Shown here one piece after another: positions 19,615 to 44,369 of a stretch of 51,450 bases of DNA. The notes below the pieces were generated by a model. It worked only from the letters and a program-made list of their open reading frames with translations. It made no database searches and was not told the DNA's origin. Every line of letters starts with the position of its first letter. The first letter of the stretch is position 1. A program made the translations under genes and the position numbers. This stretch comes from an uncultured Opitutia bacterium (GTDB lineage: Bacteria; Verrucomicrobiota; Verrucomicrobiia; Opitutales; UBA953): contig CAIXHF010000032.1 in NCBI GenBank assembly GCA_903919185.1, positions 1 to 51,450 on the forward strand, given 5' to 3'.

Positions 19615-20589
19615 ATGCGCCTCCCCGCCCTCCTTTGCGCCCTTAGTATCGCTGCCTTGACCGGCTATGCGGCCGACGCCCCCAAGCCCACCGCCCCTAA
19701 GGCTCCCGCCCCCAAGAATGTGGAGCCGCCGGTCTACATGACCGTCGAGACGGCCGGACCCGACTTCCCGCTGCAGGGCGAATACGCCGGCGAAAGCCTC
19801 GGCGCAGACGTCATCGCCCTCGGCGACGGCAACTTCCGCCTTGTCCTGCACAAAGGTGGCCTCCCCGGCGCCGGCTGGGATGCTTCGGCCAAGACCGAAA
19901 TGGAAGCTAAGCGCGACGGTGACGTCGTCCGTTTTAAGGACGTCGCAGAACTGAAGGGCGGCGTACTGACTGTCGGTGCCGCTACGCTCAAGCGCCTTGA
20001 GCGCCACAGCCCGACCGAAGGCGCTAAGGCCCCGGCAGGTGCGGTCATTCTCTTCGATGGAAATAATTCCGATGCTTGGAACGGTGGACATCTGGATGAG
20101 CGGAAGCTCCTTGCCGCTGGCACGACGTCTAAGCAGGCCTTCCAAAGCTTCACTCTACACCTTGAATTCCTCCTGCCTTTCAAGCCCCTCGGCCGTGGCC
20201 AAGGCCGTGCAAATAGCGGCGTCTATGTGCAGAACCGCTACGAAGTACAGGTCCTCGATAGTTTCGGCCTCAAGGGCTTGGACAACGAATGCGGCGGCGT
20301 CTACCAGAACAGTGCGCCCAAGGTGAACATGTGCTTCCCGCCGCTGCAGTGGCAGACCTACGACATAGAGTTCACCGCTGCTAAGTTTGATACCAACGGC
20401 AAGAAGACCGAAAATTCGATCCTCACCGTGAAGCACAACGGCGTCGTCGTGCAGGATAAGCTCTCGCTCAAGGGCGCGACCCCTGGCGGCGGTTTTAAGA
20501 CCGAAGTCCCTGCGCCCGGACCCTTCCAACTCCAAGGCCACGGCAACCCGGTGTATTACCGGAACGTTTGGATCGTGGAACAGAAGTAG
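19615..20589 (+). CDS. Secreted DUF1080 (3-keto-disaccharide hydrolase family) protein
   Basis: A 324-residue exported protein. A signal peptide (1-19) and a Pro/Lys linker are followed by an N-terminal domain (about 38-140) and a DUF1080 beta-sandwich (about 143-324; AVILFDGNNSDAWNG at the start, then LHLEFLLPF, ANSGVYVQNRYEVQVLDSFG and a concanavalin-like end PFQLQGHGNPVYYRNVWI). Some members hydrolyse 3-keto-glycosides; others only bind. The frame is open upstream to 19510 inside the esterase gene, but the ATG at 19615 begins the signal peptide. The stop codon is also the first base of a 49-base direct repeat (20587-20635). Confidence 0.87.
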   Translation: MRLPALLCALSIAALTGYAADAPKPTAPKAPAPKNVEPPVYMTVETAGPDFPLQGEYAGESLGADVIALGDGNFRLVLHKGGLPGAGWDASAKTEMEAKRDGDVVRFKDVAELKGGVLTVGAATLKRLERHSPTEGAKAPAGAVILFDGNNSDAWNGGHLDERKLLAAGTTSKQAFQSFTLHLEFLLPFKPLGRGQGRANSGVYVQNRYEVQVLDSFGLKGLDNECGGVYQNSAPKVNMCFPPLQWQTYDIEFTAAKFDTNGKKTENSILTVKHNGVVVQDKLSLKGATPGGGFKTEVPAPGPFQLQGHGNPVYYRNVWIVEQK

Positions 20590-20635
20590 GTCGGAGATAG
20601 GGGGCTGGTTGGCTAGAGTATGGTTGGCTAGGGGA
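20587..20635. repeat. 49-base direct repeat, left copy, flanking the four-helix-bundle gene
   Basis: It matches 21143-21191 at 46 of 49 positions. Internally it holds GGTTGGCTAG twice, the two copies 5 bases apart (GAGTAT-like spacer). Related sequence in the opposite orientation is at 21447-21486 and 23104-23137. Confidence 0.85.
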
Positions 20636-20727
20636 AATGCTGTTCCAGCCTGCGGGTGTGTATACCTAGGAAATAGATGACTGACTTAATCCGTGCCACC
20701 TCGAACCGACGCGGATTCATCCATGGC

Positions 20728-21141
20728 ATGGAGCAGCACCAAAGACTTGGACCAGTCAGGACCTACCGTGACCTTATCGTCTGGCAAAAAGGCAAACAGT
20801 TGGCAATCGACGTTTGCCTGCTTTGCGAAACACAAGGCATGCGTAGTCGCTTTGGACTCCGAGACCAAATGACTCGAGCCGCCATCTCGATTCCCTCCAA
20901 CATAGCGGAAGGGGATGAACGCGGCTCCAATAAGGATTCGTTAAAATACCTGATTATAGCCCGAGCCTCGCTGGCCGAACTTGAAACCCAAATTGAGATA
21001 ACTATCGGCCTGAACGCAATTAATGCTGAAGAATACGACAAACTGCACTTACAAGCACAGGAAGTCGGTCGGTTGATCGGCGGGACCATCCGGATGCGCC
21101 AGCTGCGCCTCAACGGCAGCCCACCTGAAGAAGCTAAGTGA
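20728..21141 (+). CDS. Four-helix-bundle protein (23S rRNA intervening-sequence protein family)
   Basis: A 137-residue helical protein with the family start RTYRDLIVWQKGKQLAIDVC (about 11-30) and the conserved middle GLRDQMTRAAISIPSNIAEGDERG (about 50-73), then SLKYLIIARASLAELETQIEI. These proteins were first found inside 23S rRNA insertions; free-standing copies are common and of unknown function, and the fold is shared with the Avd protein of diversity-generating retroelements. Here it is not near any rRNA or reverse transcriptase. It is flanked by 49-base direct repeats. The frame is open from 20677, but the ATG at 20728 gives the normal family start. Base composition is somewhat more AT-rich than in neighbouring genes, which fits acquisition from elsewhere. 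Confidence 0.83.
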   Translation: MEQHQRLGPVRTYRDLIVWQKGKQLAIDVCLLCETQGMRSRFGLRDQMTRAAISIPSNIAEGDERGSNKDSLKYLIIARASLAELETQIEITIGLNAINAEEYDKLHLQAQEVGRLIGGTIRMRQLRLNGSPPEEAK

Positions 21142-21142
21142 G

Positions 21143-21191
21143 TAGGTTGGAGATAGGGGACTGGTTGACTAGAGTATGGTTGGCTAGGGGA
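21143..21191. repeat. 49-base direct repeat, right copy
   Basis: It matches 20587-20635 with three mismatches and starts two bases after the four-helix-bundle reading frame ends. A REP-like hairpin array begins directly after it. Confidence 0.85.
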
Positions 21192-21192
21192 T

Positions 21193-21350
21193 GGTAGGGA
21201 CGTGGCTTCGCCGCGCCCTTCTTGCGATTGGAGTGCAAGGCGAAGCCTTGCCCCTACCCGCGAGCGTTGCTCGCGAGAGGCAGCTAGGTCGTGACGCCAT
21301 CCCGACCCTACCCGAGGCAATGAGGACCGCACGTGGTGCGGTCCCTACCT
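21193..21350. repeat. Array of REP-like hairpins with CCCTACC tails
   Basis: Several short hairpins are packed together. (1) GGTAGGG, then imperfect arms GTGGC and GCCGC around TTC (21193-21218). (2) GCAAGGC and GCCTTGC around GAA, then CCCTACC (21235-21258). (3) CGCGAGC and GCTCGCG around GTT (21260-21276). (4) A 22-base unit ending CCCTACC (21291-21312), the reverse-oriented twin of 4744-4765. (5) GGACCGCAC and GTGCGGTCC around GTG, then CCTACC (21324-21349). The first and second form an outward-facing pair as in REPIN elements. There is no gene in 21142-21522; this array and the ACTC-type and inverted repeats fill it. Confidence 0.78.
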
Positions 21351-21446
21351 AAGGCAGTAGAAAGGGGGCCGGAGAACTGGAAGTGGGTGTCTTGGATTCT
21401 TACGTAATCCGTCCTCTGAACTCTGCACTCTGCGTTCTTCGTCTTT

Positions 21447-21486
21447 CCCCTATACTCCATACTCCAGCCAACCAATCCCCTATCTG
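21447..21486. repeat. Inverted relative of the 49-base repeat
   Basis: The segment contains CCCCTATACTCC, ATACTCCAGCCAACCAATCC and CCTATCT, which on the minus strand align with the AGATAGGGG...CTGGTTGGCT...GAGTATGG part of the repeats at 20587 and 21143. It sits in the upstream region of the metallo-hydrolase gene. Confidence 0.7.
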
Positions 21487-23030: not shown

Positions 23031-23103
23031 GCCGTCCGGAAGGACGGATATTTCAGAGGACATGGGGCGGGCTAAGACTACGGGCTAAGGCTGGGTCGTT
23101 TTC

Positions 23104-23137
23104 CCCCTATACTCCTTACTCAAGCCAACCAGCCCCC
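23104..23137. repeat. Second inverted relative of the 49-base repeat
   Basis: CCCCTATACTCC, TTACTCAAGCCAACCAGCC and CCCC align with the minus strand of the 20587 and 21143 repeats and with 21447-21486. It lies in the 165-base gap between the DUF1080 gene and ffh, in which nothing else is evident. Confidence 0.65.
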
Positions 23138-23195: not shown

Positions 23196-24572
23196 GTGTT
23201 CGCCAACCTCACCGAGAAACTTACCAAGGCCCTCCGCGACCTCCGCGGGCTGTCCAAGCTCACCGAGGAGAATATCGCCCCAGCCTTGAGCGAGGTGCGC
23301 TCAGCGCTGATGACGGCCGACGTCAATTTCAAGGTCGCCAAGGATTTCACCGAGCGCGTCAAAGTCGCCTGCCTCGGGACCGCCGTCGTTGAGTCCGTCA
23401 ACCCCGGCCAGATGGCCGTCAAGGTCGTCTCGGACGAGCTCACCAAGCTGCTCGGCGAAGGCGCCCGTCCGCTCGCCCCGACCCGCCCCCTCCGCGTGTT
23501 GCTCGTCGGCCTGCAGGGCTCTGGCAAGACCACCAGTGCGGCCAAGCTCGCCAAGCACCTCGTGAAGAAGGAAGGCGTTCGCAAGCCATCGCTCGTCGCC
23601 GCTGACTTACGTCGCCCTGCGGCCATCGACCAGCTCGAGACCCTCGCCAAACAGGAAGGCTTTGATTTCCGCGCCGATCGCGACGCCACCGACGTCGCCG
23701 CCATGGTGGGGCGCCTCGTCAAGGACGCCGAAGCCGCCGGCTCCGACGTCGTCATCGTCGACACCGCCGGCCGCCTCCAGATCGACGGCGAGTTGATGGA
23801 CGAAGTCCGCCGCGTGCGCGAGGCCTTTCAACCGCACGAGGTCTTCCTCGTCGCCGACGCCGCCCTCGGCCAACAGGCCGTCGACGTGGCCGCCAAGTTC
23901 CACGAATCCACGCCCCTCACCGGCATCATCCTGACTAAGCTCGACGGTGATGCCCGCGGTGGTGCGGCCCTGTCGATGAAGACCGTCACTGGCGTGCCCA
24001 TCCGCTACATGGGCACGGGTGAGAAGTCGGGCGACTTCGATACCTTCCACCCGGAGCGTATGGCCCAACGTATTTTGGGCATGGGCGACGTCGTCTCCCT
24101 GGTCGAAAAGGCGCAGGAGGTCGTCGACCACAAGGAAGCTGAACGTCTGGCCGAGAAGATGAAGAAGGCCGACTTCGACCTCGAAGACTTCCTCGCGCAG
24201 ATGGCGCAGATGAAGAAGATGGGGCCGCTCGGAGACATCATGAAGATGATGCCGGGCATGGGCAACGTGCAGGTCGGTGCCCGTGAAGAGAAGATGCTCG
24301 GCAAGACCGAGGCCATTATCCTTTCGATGACGCTCAAAGAGCGCCGCAAGCCCGATATCCTCAATGCCTCGCGCCGCGCGCGTATTGCCAAAGGTTCGGG
24401 CACACAGGTCAGCGACATCAACGCGCTCATCAAACAGTTCACACAAATGCGCGAGATGATGCGCATGATGAAGGGCGGCAAGGGCAAGGAACTCATGCGC
24501 CGGATGGGCCAGATGGGCGGCGGCCGGGGAGGCTTCCCCGGTGGCGGTTTCCCGGGCGGAGGCTTCCGCTAA
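23196..24572 (+). CDS. ffh: Signal recognition particle protein Ffh
   Basis: Ffh binds signal sequences and 4.5S RNA and targets ribosomes to FtsY at the membrane. The 458-residue protein starts with GTG and has the N domain (1-95), a G domain with G1 [15 protein letters not shown] (about 107-121), DTAGRLQ (about 189-195) and [14 protein letters not shown] (about 246-259), and the methionine-rich M domain (about 325-430). The C-terminus ends in an unusual Gly/Phe/Pro-rich repeat ([14 protein letters not shown]). A HAD phosphatase gene follows after 4 bases. Confidence 0.97.
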
Positions 24573-24576
24573 GCCG

Positions 24577-25185
24577 ATGTCCCAGATGCACCCGTTTGAC
24601 CCTGCCCTGCTTTCCCGTCGGGGCTGGATCTTTGACTGCGACGGTACCCTCGCGGCTTCGATGTGGATTCACCACCGCAGCTGGACCCACATCATCAGTA
24701 AGCAGCTGGGCCAACCGTTCGACTTCCCCTGGCCACTCTTCTGCTCGATGGGCGGCATGTCCGCCGTCGATACCTGTAAGCGCCTCAAGGCTGATTACGG
24801 CTTCGACTTGGACGTGGAATTGCTTCTGGCCGATGGGCATGCCTTCCTCGAGGAACACCTCGAGAAGGATGTCACTGCCCGCCCCGAGGTGGTCAACATC
24901 GTGCACCACGTCCGTGGGCTGGGCCACAAGACCGCCGTCGCTTCGGCCGGCCGCAAGGCCCACGTGTATGCGACCCTCAACCGGATTGATATCACGCACC
25001 TCTTCGACGCCATCATCACGGCCGAGGACGCTGCGCGTTCTAAGCCGCACCCGGACCTCTTTCTCGCCGCCGCCGCTCGCATTGGCGTAGACCCGCGCGA
25101 CTGCGTTGTTCTGGAAGACAGCCCGCGGGGCAAGGAAGCCGCCGACGCCGCTGGCATGGAATGTATTTTAGTGGAGCCGGCGTAA
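24577..25185 (+). CDS. HAD-superfamily phosphatase (beta-phosphoglucomutase-like)
   Basis: The 202-residue protein has HAD motif I FDCDGTLA (about 21-28), a helical cap (about 30-100), motif II in VASAGRKAHVY, motif III Lys in SKPHPDLF and motif IV VVLEDSPRGKEAA (about 175-187). It belongs to the YqaB/beta-PGM-like branch, acting on small phosphorylated sugars or similar compounds; the substrate is unknown. The ATG at 24577 lies 4 bases after the ffh stop. A GTG in frame at 24541 would overlap ffh and is less likely. Confidence 0.87.
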   Translation: MSQMHPFDPALLSRRGWIFDCDGTLAASMWIHHRSWTHIISKQLGQPFDFPWPLFCSMGGMSAVDTCKRLKADYGFDLDVELLLADGHAFLEEHLEKDVTARPEVVNIVHHVRGLGHKTAVASAGRKAHVYATLNRIDITHLFDAIITAEDAARSKPHPDLFLAAAARIGVDPRDCVVLEDSPRGKEAADAAGMECILVEPA

Positions 25186-25385: not shown

Positions 25386-25667
25386 GTGATCGCCACGTTC
25401 GCCTGCCGAGCCACACATTTGCTTTGGCTCGGTCAAAGACCACCCGAACTGCCAGCGACAATCCAACAGACCGCCCTCCGCAAACTCACCCAGCTCCAAG
25501 CTGCCACCACGCTCAACGACCTCCGCATCCCTCCGGGCAACCGACTCCAGCCGCTCCGCGGAGACCGCCAAGGGCAGCACAGCATCCGCATTAACGACCA
25601 ATATCGACTTTGTTTCCGCTGGGTAGGCCGCGAGGCCTTCAATATCGAAATCACCGACTATCACTAA
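25386..25667 (+). CDS. higB: Type II toxin HigB (RelE/ParE fold)
   Basis: A 93-residue RelE-fold toxin, probably a ribosome-dependent mRNA endonuclease. Family features: the start ATFACRATHLLWLGQ, helix PATIQQTALRKLTQLQAA, the PPGNRLQPLRGDRQGQHSIRINDQYRLCFRW core (about 49-79), and the terminal ITDYH with the conserved C-terminal His. The start is GTG, nearly at the transcript start. The antitoxin gene begins 5 bases after the stop, the inverted order (toxin first) typical of higBA. Confidence 0.92.
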   Translation: MIATFACRATHLLWLGQRPPELPATIQQTALRKLTQLQAATTLNDLRIPPGNRLQPLRGDRQGQHSIRINDQYRLCFRWVGREAFNIEITDYH

Positions 25668-25672
25668 TCCTT

Positions 25673-25972
25673 ATGAAAAAGAAGCTCCTCAACGTCCACC
25701 CGGGCGAACTACTCCGTGAGGAGTTCCTGAACCCGCTCGGCATCACGGCCTATCGCCTGGCCAAGGGCGCCTGCCTGCCGCACCAGCGCGTCAACGAGAT
25801 CCTCAAGGAACGCCGCGGCATCACCGCCGAGACCGACCTACATCTCTGCGCCTATCTCGGGTTAGAGCCTGGCTACTGGCTGCGCGTCCAGCTCGCCTAT
25901 GACCTCAGGGAGGCCGTCAACACCATCGGGGACAAGGTCAAAGCGTCTATCAAGCCGCTGCAGGCGGCTTGA
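25673..25972 (+). CDS. higA: HigA antitoxin (XRE-family helix-turn-helix)
   Basis: A 99-residue HTH protein with the HigA start VHPGELLREEFLNPLGITAYRLAKG (about 7-31), HTH helices to QRVNEILKERRGITAETDLHLCAYLG (about 38-63) and PGYWLRVQLAYDLREA. HigA neutralises HigB and represses the operon. The frame is open 21 codons upstream inside higB, but the ATG at 25673 is the natural start. A 19-base inverted repeat, TTGAGTCGAATCGACTCAA, covers the stop codon, followed by a REP-like hairpin. Confidence 0.93.
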   Translation: MKKKLLNVHPGELLREEFLNPLGITAYRLAKGACLPHQRVNEILKERRGITAETDLHLCAYLGLEPGYWLRVQLAYDLREAVNTIGDKVKASIKPLQAA

Positions 25973-29400: not shown

Positions 29401-31032
29401 TTAGAAGGAGGCGCCCTTGAAGCGAGCGCGGAGACGGTTGCGAAGCGTGATCGCACCTAGGTTAAGACACACGACCAAGACAATCAGCAGGAGCGTGGTC
29501 GCGAAGACCATCGGACGGGCGGCGTCGGAGTCGGGCGACTGGAAGCCCAAGTCAAAGATATGAAAGCCGAGGTGCATGAACTTGCGGTCCAAGTGCAGGA
29601 AGGGGGCCAAGCCATCCACGGGAAGCGTCGGGGCCAGTTTAACGACGCCGACGAGCATGAGCGGAGCGACTTCACCCGCACCGCGGGCCATGGCGAGGAT
29701 GACGCCAGTCAAGATACCTGGGGCCGAAGCCGGGAGCAAAATATCGCGGATCGTCTGCCACTTGGAGGCCCCGGCAGCGAGCGAGGCTTCGCGCATGCCC
29801 CGCGGAACGGCCGAGAGGGCCTCTTCGGTGGCCACGATGACAACCGGCAAGGTCATCAGTGCCAGCGTGAGCGAACACCAGAGCAAGCCGCCGGTCCCGA
29901 AGACCGGCGTATTGTTGTTATACTTGAGCTGGTCGGCGAAGAAGAGTCGATCCAACGAACCTCCAAGGACGTAGACAAAGAACCCGAGGCCGAAGACACC
30001 GAAGACAATCGAGGGGACGCCGGCCAAGTTGTTGACGCAGATGCGGACGGCGCGCAGCACCGGGCCGTCTTTGGCATATTCGCGCAGGTAGATGGCCGCG
30101 ATGACCCCAAAAGGCGTGACCAACAAACTCATGAAGACCGTCATGACGAGCGTACCAAAGATGGCAGGCATGAGACCGCCCTCCGTATTAGCCTCGCGCG
30201 GCTCATCCATGAGAAACTCGCGAAGACGTCCGAAGAAAAGGCCGACGCGCTGACTAAAGGTCATTCGATTCGGCTCCCAGGCACGGACCAAGGAGGCAAC
30301 GGGTAGCGTCAGCGCCCGACCCGAAGCGTCGTGAACCTCCAGTTTTGCCGCGGAGATGGTGGCCGTCACTTCATCAGCCTCGGCCTTCAGTTCCGCGAAG
30401 CGGGTATCGAGTTTAGCTAGCCGATCGACGATGGCCTGCGTGGGCTCGCGACGATCTTCGGCCCGACGCTGGGCGATGCGCAAGGTTTCCATCTCGGCGT
30501 TCACTTCGCCAATCTGTCGGCGGTTGATGTCCGTCAACTGCTCGCGGATTTCACCGGCATGGCCGACTTCCGCCTGTACGGCCGAGAAGAATGAAGCTGC
30601 ACTGGCCTCGAGGCGAACCCCCTTGGCGTCGATAAGGGCGACGGGGACCACGAAAGCCGGTCCGTTTTCCATGCGCTCGAGGCCGAGGACCGCAGGATCA
30701 ACCGACTCTTGGGCGATCTTCTTTTCGTCCACCCAAATGTAGGAGCCGCCGTTGACTTCGCGAAGGCCGACTTGGTACTGGCGCTCGTAACGAGGCTCAG
30801 TGGCTAGTGAACCTGGACGAATCCGGCGCTGAGCCAATTGGCCGATATGCGTGGCGCCATCTGCTAACTTAATCGTCGGGACGGCTGGTGCCCAGAAAAC
30901 CGAGAAACCATTGACGAGGACGAGCCCGAGCAAGCCGACGACCATGGCCAAGCCCACAATTAACCCAAGGCTGGTGAACCAGACCCAAGGTTCGCCCTTA
31001 GGTGTTGCAGAATCAGAAGGTTGGTTAGCCAT
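29401..31032 (-). CDS. pstA: Phosphate ABC transporter permease PstA, long form with periplasmic coiled coil
   Basis: PstA is one of the two membrane subunits of the importer. At 543 residues it is nearly twice the enteric length. Residues about 17-38 form the first membrane segment. About 45-275 is an extra domain predicted on the outside, including a coiled-coil stretch (about 135-225, heptad-like EIREQLTDINRRQIGEVNAEM and ERRxxQAIVDRLAKLDTRFAELKAE-type runs). The ordinary permease core with its EAL-type loop (SAVPRGMREASLAAGASKWQTI, about 415-436) follows from about 285. Long PstA proteins are known in Pseudomonas-like bacteria. The gene starts 3 bases after pstC. Confidence 0.93.
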   Translation of the reverse strand: MANQPSDSATPKGEPWVWFTSLGLIVGLAMVVGLLGLVLVNGFSVFWAPAVPTIKLADGATHIGQLAQRRIRPGSLATEPRYERQYQVGLREVNGGSYIWVDEKKIAQESVDPAVLGLERMENGPAFVVPVALIDAKGVRLEASAASFFSAVQAEVGHAGEIREQLTDINRRQIGEVNAEMETLRIAQRRAEDRREPTQAIVDRLAKLDTRFAELKAEADEVTATISAAKLEVHDASGRALTLPVASLVRAWEPNRMTFSQRVGLFFGRLREFLMDEPREANTEGGLMPAIFGTLVMTVFMSLLVTPFGVIAAIYLREYAKDGPVLRAVRICVNNLAGVPSIVFGVFGLGFFVYVLGGSLDRLFFADQLKYNNNTPVFGTGGLLWCSLTLALMTLPVVIVATEEALSAVPRGMREASLAAGASKWQTIRDILLPASAPGILTGVILAMARGAGEVAPLMLVGVVKLAPTLPVDGLAPFLHLDRKFMHLGFHIFDLGFQSPDSDAARPMVFATTLLLIVLVVCLNLGAITLRNRLRARFKGASF

Positions 31033-31035
31033 GGC

Positions 31036-33333
31036 TTAGACGACCTTGTAACGCTCCCGGAGGCGCTGGCGGAGGACTTCCGCGAGGGTGTTAATAATAA
31101 AGGTGAGGAGGAAGAGGCAGCAAGCGCCGAGGAAGAGCGCGCGGAAGTGCGTATGGCCCGTCGCCGCCTCGGGGAGTTCGACCGCAATATTGGCGGAGAG
31201 CGTACGCATGCCATTGAAAGGATTGGCCTCCATCACCGGCGTATTCCCCGTGGCCATCACAACGATCATCGTCTCGCCAATGGCGCGACCAAAGCCGATC
31301 ATGACCGCAGACACGATGCCAGAGATGGCCGTTGGGACAACCACGCGCCAGACGGTCTGCCAGCGACTAGCGCCACAAGCTAAAGAACCCGAAACCAGCG
31401 ACGGAGGTACGTTGGACAAAGCGTCTTCGGCGATGGTGAACACCAGCGGAATGACGGCGAAGCCCATGACAAAACCGACCACCAAGGAATTACGTGAGTC
31501 GTAGGACAGACCCGTAGTTTGGCGCCACCACTCCCGGAAGTCAGAAACATTCTGGCCGGAAGCGAGGTCCTTAACCGTGAAGAAAGTGCTCTCGACCCAA
31601 GGCGCCGCGGACCAAGCCGCCCAGCCAGCGAGCAGCAGGAACGGCATCAGCCAGACGAACTCCCAACCTGGGCCAACGCGACGACGCACCGGTTGAGGCA
31701 ACAACGACCAGAGATACCCAGCGCTTAAGGCTGCGGGGGCGAGCACCGTGATGACGCAGATCAGCTTCAGCAGGCTGGCATCCACGAGCGGAGCCAACCA
31801 CAAGCCCGCGAGGAAGCCCAAGACCACTGAGGGCAGCGACGCCATGATTTCCATCGTCGGCTTAACGACCTTACGCCATTCGGGGCGGAGGAACTGCGAG
31901 ACGTACACCGCGGCCAAAAGAGCGATGGGCAAGGCGAACAGGAGCGCGTAGATGGTCCCTTTGACGGTGCCATAGAAAAGTGGCACGAGGGAATACTTCG
32001 CCTCGAACTCATCCGCACCCGAGCTAGACTGCCAAGTGTAGGCTGGACCTTCCGCGCCTTCGTACCAGATCTTCCCGAAGAAGGCGTTGAACGAAGATTC
32101 TGGGTGATGGTCTTCCACTTCCCAGCGGCGGAGCGAGCCATCAGCACACAGCACGCTGAAGCGGTCGTAGTTGCGTGCGAACGCGACCTGACGCACGGGC
32201 GACTCCGGAGCCACGCCGTCCCAACGGATGGAACCGGTCGTCATATTGCGGACCTGCATGCGTCCACCGGCCACCGTCAGGTAGCACTTATTACCGACGG
32301 CCGGGTAGATGCCCTGCCCTGCCCCGGGCAAAACTTCGGCATCGTGAATCTTACCCCAGCGACGCAGACTACGTCCATCGGGTTGCTTTTGTGGATAGAG
32401 CGACCAGACCTCCTCCACCCCGGCACCATTGGCGAGAACGACGGAAACATTACCGAAGATGAAACCGGCGGCGGTGACACGGCGATCGGCGGAGCCTTCG
32501 AAGGGGCGGAAGGACTGCAGAAATTCAATGACCTCGCCATTCTCCGCATAGACACGCACCTCGCCATCCTTGCGCACCACGACGACGGAATCCGCGGTCG
32601 AAGGCACCAGTACACGCTCGAGGTCAGGCACGTCCGCGGCGACCGCGAAGGGCGTTCCCACGGTAATCTTCGCTTTGCCACCCAAGCCCTTACGCTCGGT
32701 GAGGCGGAGTGCAGTCAGTCGATCGCGACCGGCTTCCTGCTGACGACAAAGCAATAAACGGCCCGCTGCGCTCATCACACTCCAAGCTTCCACGCAGGGC
32801 AAGCCGGCCTTACCGACCTGAACCGGAGCACCCGCAGTCACTTGGGGATCGAGGCTACGCTGGCCTTGCTGCGAAAAATCGGCCTTATAGGTGACCTTCA
32901 GCTCACGCACCGAGCCATCGGCGAGACCCAACACGACCAAGCCGTCGCGAGGGTAGCTGCGGACCGAGGCGACCGCGGGAAGTTCGGCCTCTGGCACCCA
33001 CTCACGGACCAACGTGCCATCCTTGACGCGGTGGAATCGGATGCGGCCATTGGCCTCCACGACAAAGGGTAACTCGCCGTATTCGTCCTCGCCGAACGCT
33101 TGGGCCGAAGCGGACATCGGTACCGGAGTGAGCGGCAAAACCTTTGCTCCGACGAATAGCGGAAAAACCTGAAAGACCAGGAACAGCAACATCCCTATGA
33201 CCGCCAAGACAACCCCCACACCACCCACGCGAATGATGCGACCCATCCAGAGGTCGGTCAGCAATGTCAGACGGGTCACCTGAAAGCGCTCCTCGGAGGG
33301 AGCCTGCGGCGCCTTTTTGTCGGTTGTGGCCAT
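31036..33333 (-). CDS. pstC: Phosphate ABC transporter permease PstC, long form with propeller-like outer domain
   Basis: PstC pairs with PstA to form the phosphate channel. The 765-residue protein has a membrane segment at about 34-57, then about 370 residues predicted outside the membrane that look like a beta-propeller (repeated motifs such as GLADGSVRELK, VRKDGEVRVYA, CADGSLRRWEV), then the permease core from about 450 (YALLFALPIALLAAVYVSQF, GFLAGLWLAPLVD, the EAA loop SLVSGSLACGASRWQTVWRVVVPTAISGI). It is separated from pstS by 142 bases containing a large inverted repeat. A second Pho-box-like direct repeat lies directly before the start codon. Confidence 0.93.
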   Translation of the reverse strand: MATTDKKAPQAPSEERFQVTRLTLLTDLWMGRIIRVGGVGVVLAVIGMLLFLVFQVFPLFVGAKVLPLTPVPMSASAQAFGEDEYGELPFVVEANGRIRFHRVKDGTLVREWVPEAELPAVASVRSYPRDGLVVLGLADGSVRELKVTYKADFSQQGQRSLDPQVTAGAPVQVGKAGLPCVEAWSVMSAAGRLLLCRQQEAGRDRLTALRLTERKGLGGKAKITVGTPFAVAADVPDLERVLVPSTADSVVVVRKDGEVRVYAENGEVIEFLQSFRPFEGSADRRVTAAGFIFGNVSVVLANGAGVEEVWSLYPQKQPDGRSLRRWGKIHDAEVLPGAGQGIYPAVGNKCYLTVAGGRMQVRNMTTGSIRWDGVAPESPVRQVAFARNYDRFSVLCADGSLRRWEVEDHHPESSFNAFFGKIWYEGAEGPAYTWQSSSGADEFEAKYSLVPLFYGTVKGTIYALLFALPIALLAAVYVSQFLRPEWRKVVKPTMEIMASLPSVVLGFLAGLWLAPLVDASLLKLICVITVLAPAALSAGYLWSLLPQPVRRRVGPGWEFVWLMPFLLLAGWAAWSAAPWVESTFFTVKDLASGQNVSDFREWWRQTTGLSYDSRNSLVVGFVMGFAVIPLVFTIAEDALSNVPPSLVSGSLACGASRWQTVWRVVVPTAISGIVSAVMIGFGRAIGETMIVVMATGNTPVMEANPFNGMRTLSANIAVELPEAATGHTHFRALFLGACCLFLLTFIINTLAEVLRQRLRERYKVV

Positions 33334-43669: not shown

Positions 43670-44236
43670 TTACATAATGATCACCGGAGCAGGCTGGGCC
43701 GCCGGGGCACCGGCATCGGCAGGCTGAGTGATTGGAGCAGCGGGGGCGGGGTTGTTGAGCGCGGCCATCTCATTGCGGAGGGCGCTCATGGCGCGGTCGC
43801 GGAGGGCGATTGAGCGCTGGCCCAGGGCTTCGCGTTCAGCGGGAGTGGCGTTGCGCATGGCTTCGCCGAGTTCACGGGCTTCGGCCATGATGGCTTGGCC
43901 TTCAGGCTTCATCATGCCGGCGAACATCGCCCGCTGCAGCTTGGCTTGGTCGCCACCGGAGATTTCTTCGACCATCTTCTTGGTCTCTTCACCAAAGGCC
44001 TTGGCGCGGGCCTTGAATTCTTCCTTGGCGATATCGTCCTCGGACTTCACCGCAGTAACTGGCGTCTCAATGGCACGCGGAGCACGAGCCTTGGAGACCG
44101 GGGCAACCTTTTCAGGGACGATGGGCTTAGGAGCCTCGACGACAACGGGTGCCAGAGTCGGGAAAGCGTAACGGGCGATCAAAAAGCCACCCCCGAGGCC
44201 GAGGGCGAGAATGAGGACAAGCGTGGTTTTGGACAT
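43670..44236 (-). CDS. Membrane-anchored helical protein of unknown function
   Basis: A 188-residue protein: N-terminal membrane anchor (about 4-22, LVLILALGLGGGFLIARYA), Pro/Val-rich linker (about 25-60), a charged helical region (about 60-160; KEEFKARAKAFGEETKKMVEEI, EAMRNATPAEREALGQRSIALRDRAMSALRNEM) and an Ala/Pro-rich end (AGAPAAQPAPVIIM). I do not recognise the family. The frame is open upstream, but the ATG at 44236 begins the anchor. It converges on ilvC and lies upstream of the DUF485-symporter pair on the other strand. Confidence 0.6.
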   Translation of the reverse strand: MSKTTLVLILALGLGGGFLIARYAFPTLAPVVVEAPKPIVPEKVAPVSKARAPRAIETPVTAVKSEDDIAKEEFKARAKAFGEETKKMVEEISGGDQAKLQRAMFAGMMKPEGQAIMAEARELGEAMRNATPAEREALGQRSIALRDRAMSALRNEMAALNNPAPAAPITQPADAGAPAAQPAPVIIM

Positions 44237-44369
44237 AGGGGAGTAATTTAGGCTTAAATAAGAAACCCGACGATTGACGGATGTTAAGACTAATCGCCCA
44301 AAACCCGCCGACCGCCCCCTCTCAAACGATTGCATTCCCCCATTCAATGGCTTGGATGTGCCCAACCCC

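Follow-up and report, generated by a model that had tools for sequence, protein, structure and literature searches.

Inverted short-repeat arrays accompany 23S rRNA intervening-sequence protein genes across bacterial phyla and point toward a transposon-like element

In an uncultured Opitutia bacterium (UBA953), a small gene of the 23S rRNA intervening-sequence protein family (IVP, or S23) is bracketed by two nearly identical direct repeats. This raises the question whether the gene and its repeats form a unit that has moved or duplicated, or whether the gene sits by chance in a repeat-rich gap. The window, i.e., the whole stretch of DNA analyzed here, comprises 51,450 nt of contig CAIXHF010000032.1 from assembly GCA_903919185.1 (the genome G000). 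The reading that we prefer, with a probability of roughly 0.7, is that arm, IVP gene and arm together make up a single member, in this window, of a transposon-like element family with no recognizable transposase. The features of the locus are the following.

20595–20637, plus strand: left arm, with its G-rich strand toward the gene; core of direct repeat R1 (20587–20635)
20677–21141, plus strand: 23S_rRNA_IVP / S23 four-helix-bundle gene, 154 aa, PF05635
21143–21191, plus strand: R2, apparently the left arm repeated once more in direct orientation and not a unit boundary; lacking in sister genome G023
21193–21443, no strand: mosaic of REP-like hairpins and a heptad array between gene and right arm; absent from G023
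21444–21485, minus strand: right arm, inverted relative to the left arm; G020 and G021, which have no gene at this site, keep a shortened form
20651–21461, no strand: 811 bp of the window that G021 lacks entirely (8 bp common to both edges)
23096–23137, minus strand: solitary right-arm-type array without a gene, upstream of ffh; a dispersed copy, of which the genome-wide repeat search matches 23114–23137

The 154-aa protein matched PF05635 (23S_rRNA_IVP) with an E-value of 6e-32 and 110.5 bits at a cut-off of 33.8, and therefore belongs to the family to which the first-pass annotation had related it. Its predicted structure (pLDDT 88.7) resembles 2gsc (XCC0516), a pentamer, with a TM of 0.92–0.93. 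The proposed relation to the fold of Avd from diversity-generating retroelements (DGRs) also holds for the model, with a TM of 0.85 to 4dwl. Profile search and fold comparison revealed no recognizable nuclease or recombinase domain in the IVP protein and matched no catalytic family; no other protein is encoded between the arms. To our knowledge, no function has been established for the S23/four-helix-bundle family. Flanked by a 3-keto-disaccharide hydrolase gene on one side and a metallo-beta-lactamase-fold gene on the other, the gene is not inside an rRNA gene, and it is foreign in composition: the suggested check of GC content and codon use gave 52% GC compared to 61% for the window, and a GC3 of 57% compared to 73–84% for the neighbors. 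It is 96.6% identical to the G023 ortholog (97% at the amino acid level) versus 88–90% for the neighboring genes, and the gene shows fewer synonymous changes than they do.

R1 and R2 do agree at 46 of 49 bases (three differences) and bracket one ORF, as originally described. The boundaries of the element, however, are inverted rather than direct. An alignment of the left arm with the reverse complement of 21444–21485 has 36 of 43 columns identical, and the ortholog in G023 carries a left arm (counterpart at L077 4074) and an inverted right arm, without R2 and without the REP insert. On these alignments, the unit is best described as the IVP gene with inverted arms at 20595–20637 and 21444–21485, and not as R1–gene–R2. 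R2 appears to be a left-arm copy of secondary origin, and both R2 and the REP-like hairpins would be later additions between gene and right arm. The heptad array GAGTGCA/GAGTTCA/GAGGACG occupies 21394–21443 on the reverse strand of the inserted mosaic. Relatives of the repeat in opposite orientation were present at 21447–21486 and 23104–23137, where they had been noted before. A search of close relatives for an empty site with one repeat had been proposed. Gene-less sites exist in G020 and G021, with neighbors as in the window; their junction retains the left arm plus the shortened right arm, i.e., a hairpin. G020 also lacks roughly the interval 20651–21461, and in both genomes the gene could be absent by loss instead of never having been there.

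Window positions 21193–21345 and many other loci belong to a second dispersed repeat class of REP-like palindromes, e.g., GGTAGGGACGTGGCTTCGCCGCGCCC and GGACCGCACGTGGTGCGGTCC. Despite these palindromes, no Y1 transposase was detected in the draft genome G000 with the Y1_Tnp profile.

Arms accompany the IVP gene across bacterial phyla. To detect them, the flank preceding each gene was aligned with the reverse-complemented flank that follows it, in loci chosen by similarity from draft MAGs with uncertain start codons. Within the genus, strong inverted arms were found at 43 of 46 IVP genes, which are not independent because loci within a clade are often orthologous; strong direct flank matches occurred at only two of the 46, the window and one other. 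IVP loci numbered 80 in a GTDB scan and spanned many phyla, among them Planctomycetota, Acidobacteriota, Bacteroidota, Clostridia, Proteobacteria and Patescibacteria. With a score threshold chosen by eye, at least 16 was reached by 41 of the 80 loci, but by only 3.4% of the 204 control ORFs taken from these loci (p = 1.5e-20). At a score of at least 15, the comparison was 43 of 80 versus 8% of 62 size-matched control ORFs. At about half of these diverse loci arms were not detectable, and short, approximate 23S rRNA probes found no rRNA at any of the 80. Inverted arms were further present at 8 of 14 IVP genes on cyanobacterial plasmids and at 16 of 23 IVP copies on viral contigs, some of these copies being redundant. 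Dinucleotide shuffles and partner swaps abolished the inverted-arm signal, and direct flank repeats were not enriched around the family.

Degenerate 7- or 8-mers, repeated in arrays, make up the arms, with period 7 in 26 and period 8 in 12 of the 43 armed GTDB loci; the window arms have a 15-nt compound unit instead of the usual 7–8 nt. According to GC skew, the G-rich strand faces the gene from both arms. Tree and arm comparison showed that IVP clades of the genus have array motifs of their own, e.g., GAGTACR, GAGTCGAKGGTAGA, GCGGTTR, GATGACTGAGTCGA and CGAGGACA. GAGTACR arrays also occur in genomes where the matching clade was not found, so that motif and clade do not strictly co-occur. On cyanobacterial plasmids, TAGGGAG, GGGAAAA, GGGAACA, GGGTGTA and GGTGACA are inverted around IVP genes, and these arms include STRR-type heptads. 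Gene-less inverted array pairs are scattered through genomes, and convergent pairs of solitary arrays enclose short interiors that are unrelated to one another, as in AGGTRKTR(GCGGTTR)n ... (YAACCGC)nYAMYACCT. Among the matches listed, pairs within 600 nt were convergent in 23, divergent in none and same-strand in 7 cases, a count that includes a few convergent pairs bracketing an IVP gene and, for one search, only the close pairs.

Insertion, inversion and gene-less derivatives were all observed, in addition to the association with arms. Close relatives differed in presence or absence at five plasmid sites, each intact, and at the window site. On the cyanobacterial plasmids, the filled locus L247 has gene-less relatives in L258, L259 and L260; L240, inserted between nrdB and nrdA on the opposite strand, corresponds to gene-less L254; L242 and L249 correspond to L262 and L263; and L243 to L255 and L256, with L257 at the same site carrying arrays without the IVP gene. 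The empty sites L258–L260, L254, L262 and L263 contain no array. No consistent target-site duplication of fixed length was seen across the compared sites: none was clear at L247, L240 or L242, and L249 has a possible duplication TTCTA(A/G). In planctomycete locus L204, a dnaE2-like gene is interrupted by an element with GAAGAGAC arms; the frame of the dnaE2-like gene is open throughout, and the assembly's sole other DnaE match is distant (32%). Between the stop of an upstream codirectional frame and the outer edge of the left arm, the median distance is 6 nt, and it is within about 13 nt in 43 of 78 cases, an approximate count on stop-to-stop frames.

The element of G004 is inverted in place compared to G012, G013, G015 and G016, with breakpoints within the arms. 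Transposition of the G004 element to a new site was considered and rejected, since its seemingly unrelated flanks are the same flanks swapped. Many genus copies are vertically inherited at orthologous sites. Between L045 and L106 there are no synonymous changes in 142 codons while the flanking DNA is 91–96% identical, and in G013/G016 the element interior is 97.9% identical versus 82–86% for the flanks; several other pairs show the opposite pattern. The earlier idea of a small moving cassette without a recognized transposase is supported by the empty sites, the foreign composition and the sister element flipped in place, but it has to be given up with respect to the direct repeats as boundaries.

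An RNA-level element that is not actively mobile might instead account for these observations. In this scenario, RNase III cuts the paired arms of the transcript, as it does for 23S rRNA IVSs, and the IVP mRNA is thereby insulated or regulated, while copies spread only by homologous recombination between dispersed repeats. Predicted folds are in line with such a function, as arms are paired and the ORF lies in the loop for both the L240 element (−169 kcal/mol, z −7.4) and the G023 element (−221 kcal/mol, z −7.0), and the flip in G004 is a case of rearrangement at arms. However, because the empty sites L258–L260, L254, L262 and L263 are array-free and the dnaE2-like gene is interrupted, more than recombination between resident arrays is needed. 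That unrelated heptads of different lineages keep the same polarity likewise speaks against this explanation, which we regard as unlikely.

Still less probable, in our estimate, is that another enzyme carries the elements along as non-autonomous passengers, either a reverse transcriptase (RT), as for Avd in DGRs, or a Y1 transposase of the RAYT/IS200 type. The shared fold with Avd, the binder of a DGR reverse transcriptase, and the REPIN/RAYT-like layout, i.e., a gene between inverted repeats plus dispersed pairs, would fit this idea. Nevertheless, the gene between the arms is IVP, not an RT or transposase. Among the 31 genus genomes, which are incomplete drafts, an RT was detected in 1 and a Y1 transposase in 14, with neither in G000 or G023; RT and Y1 transposase are unlikely general partners in the genus, since they went undetected in 30 and 17 of the 31 genomes, respectively.

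The direct-repeat cassette, in which the unit would be R1–gene–R2, has the near identity of the two repeats around one gene in its favor. It is refuted by G023, where the IVP gene occurs without R2, and it is at odds with the lack of enrichment of direct flank repeats. Moreover, the search for the repeat elsewhere in the genome, as had been proposed, returned about 43 copies of the R1 core (repeat positions ~13–48, ~36 nt), mostly intergenic and within a mosaic of other short repeats. Direct pairs also surround unrelated ORFs on contig C57, one of 223 aa (8056/9002) and one of 512 aa (1928/3687). The R1/R2 repeat is a dispersed intergenic family not specific to the IVP gene, and we consider the cassette highly improbable. 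Chance placement, despite the many intergenic repeats of this genome, can practically be dismissed given the control ORFs in the same loci, the shuffles, the partner swaps and the recurrence of the arms in other phyla, on plasmids and on viral contigs.

Compared to known systems, the window element is not a strict IVS, as it lies outside rRNA, and neither a REPIN/RAYT nor a DGR. The 23S rRNA IVSs with an S23 ORF in Leptospira and Coxiella have the same protein family and complementary ends bordering the ORF, which in Coxiella form a 28-bp stem with the ORF in the loop (PMC4990558). In contrast to these, the window element has arms of tandem 7–8-mers and dispersed gene-less copies, and for the RNase III excision of IVSs it offers a predicted stem alone. 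REPIN/RAYT systems similarly place a gene between inverted repeats, with lineage-specific repeats and dispersed convergent gene-less pairs (PMC3116915 for REPINs), but here no HUH/Y1 transposase lies between the arms and tandem heptads replace the GTAG/CGTC palindromes. To DGRs the likeness is the modeled four-helix-bundle fold of Avd (TM 0.85), whereas the element has no RT, template repeat or variable repeat, and no RT was detected in G000. MITEs and IS elements share terminal inverted repeats, insertion polymorphism and internally deleted derivatives; unlike them, the element shows no DDE or HUH enzyme and no consistent target duplication.

For the transposon-like element, we infer that the IVP protein drives movement. 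The Avd-fold protein would recognize its cognate arms, as ssDNA or as the RNA stem of the arms, and, together with a host enzyme, could promote copying or insertion of anything between two arms. Arrays might then expand and contract by slippage, lose the gene and persist as solitary hairpins or STRR-type heptads, so that the element behaves like a parent with MITE-like offspring. Insertion just past stop codons, combined with a predicted RNA stem that holds the ORF in its loop as in rRNA IVSs (PMC4990558), may limit damage in operons and make the element tolerable there. Solitary heptad arrays may thus be non-autonomous debris of the family, and rRNA IVSs may be one insertion niche. The family probably gave rise to the enigmatic short repeats of cyanobacteria and numerous other bacteria. 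In its widest form, the proposal is a tentative one, which we hold at somewhat less than even odds: IVP proteins would be dedicated mobility factors of bacteria-wide selfish elements that rely on neither a known transposase nor an RT, with the heptads of cyanobacteria, Xanthomonas and others as non-autonomous offspring and 23S rRNA IVSs as copies landed in rRNA.

Heptads GGGAATC/GGGGAYT have been described in Xanthomonas and Nostoc, and Rehm et al. reported 70 convergent GGGAATC array pairs in X. campestris (PMC4692102); this species encodes an IVP protein (2gsc, XCC0516). GGGAATC arrays were absent from all IVP loci examined. For the TAACTGA repeats of Beggiatoaceae, "no mechanism is evident" (PMC4679880). 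All these repeats resemble the arms, as do cyanobacterial STRRs, in being 7-nt tandem units between genes; for Xanthomonas and Beggiatoaceae the comparison is by description only, and the papers on the Xanthomonas/Nostoc and Beggiatoaceae repeats report no associated gene. A literature search that covered no preprints and few subscription papers found no published link between IVP/S23 genes and heptad arrays; others may have reported one earlier. The heptads of cyanobacteria, xanthomonads and Beggiatoaceae had no known source (PMC4692102; PMC4679880), and the link to IVP gives both them and the S23 family a testable origin.

IVP genes have been reported to be CRISPR-associated (PMC3936711). 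In L246, L248 and L251 they separate cas6 from cas4 (Pseudanabaena, Anabaena 90) or cmr2 from cmr3 (Picosynechococcus), and are framed by arrays, weakly in L251. Since such framing is expected of insertion, IVP genes among cas genes would be insertion passengers, and the reported association may reflect insertion.

In G023, an IS3-type IS at about 55–1330 of contig C281 (L115), with two minus-strand ORFs and ends TGACCTGACCCC/GGGGTCAGGTCA, breaks the IVP gene at its 3' end; the gene is intact in contig C110 of this MAG. With this apparent strain variation, the gene seems dispensable. IVP genes of the genus cluster in the vicinity of ffh (window 23196–25185; L078, L079, L080, L082, L085, L088): several genomes have them behind ffh-HAD and G011/G022 between ffh and the metallo-beta-lactamase gene, whereas the window copy precedes ffh by two genes. 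A HigB/HigA-like toxin-antitoxin pair, named by sequence reading only, follows the HAD gene at 25386–25972; this stretch is wholly absent in G009, and its first part is absent in G021. At 44236–44362, G021 and G009 have about 4.4 kb extra at the same point. Positions 30725–32718 are only about 70% identical to G021, and a similar stretch is 69% identical to G020, within surroundings of 87–92%, suggestive of a fast-evolving or replaced gene region.
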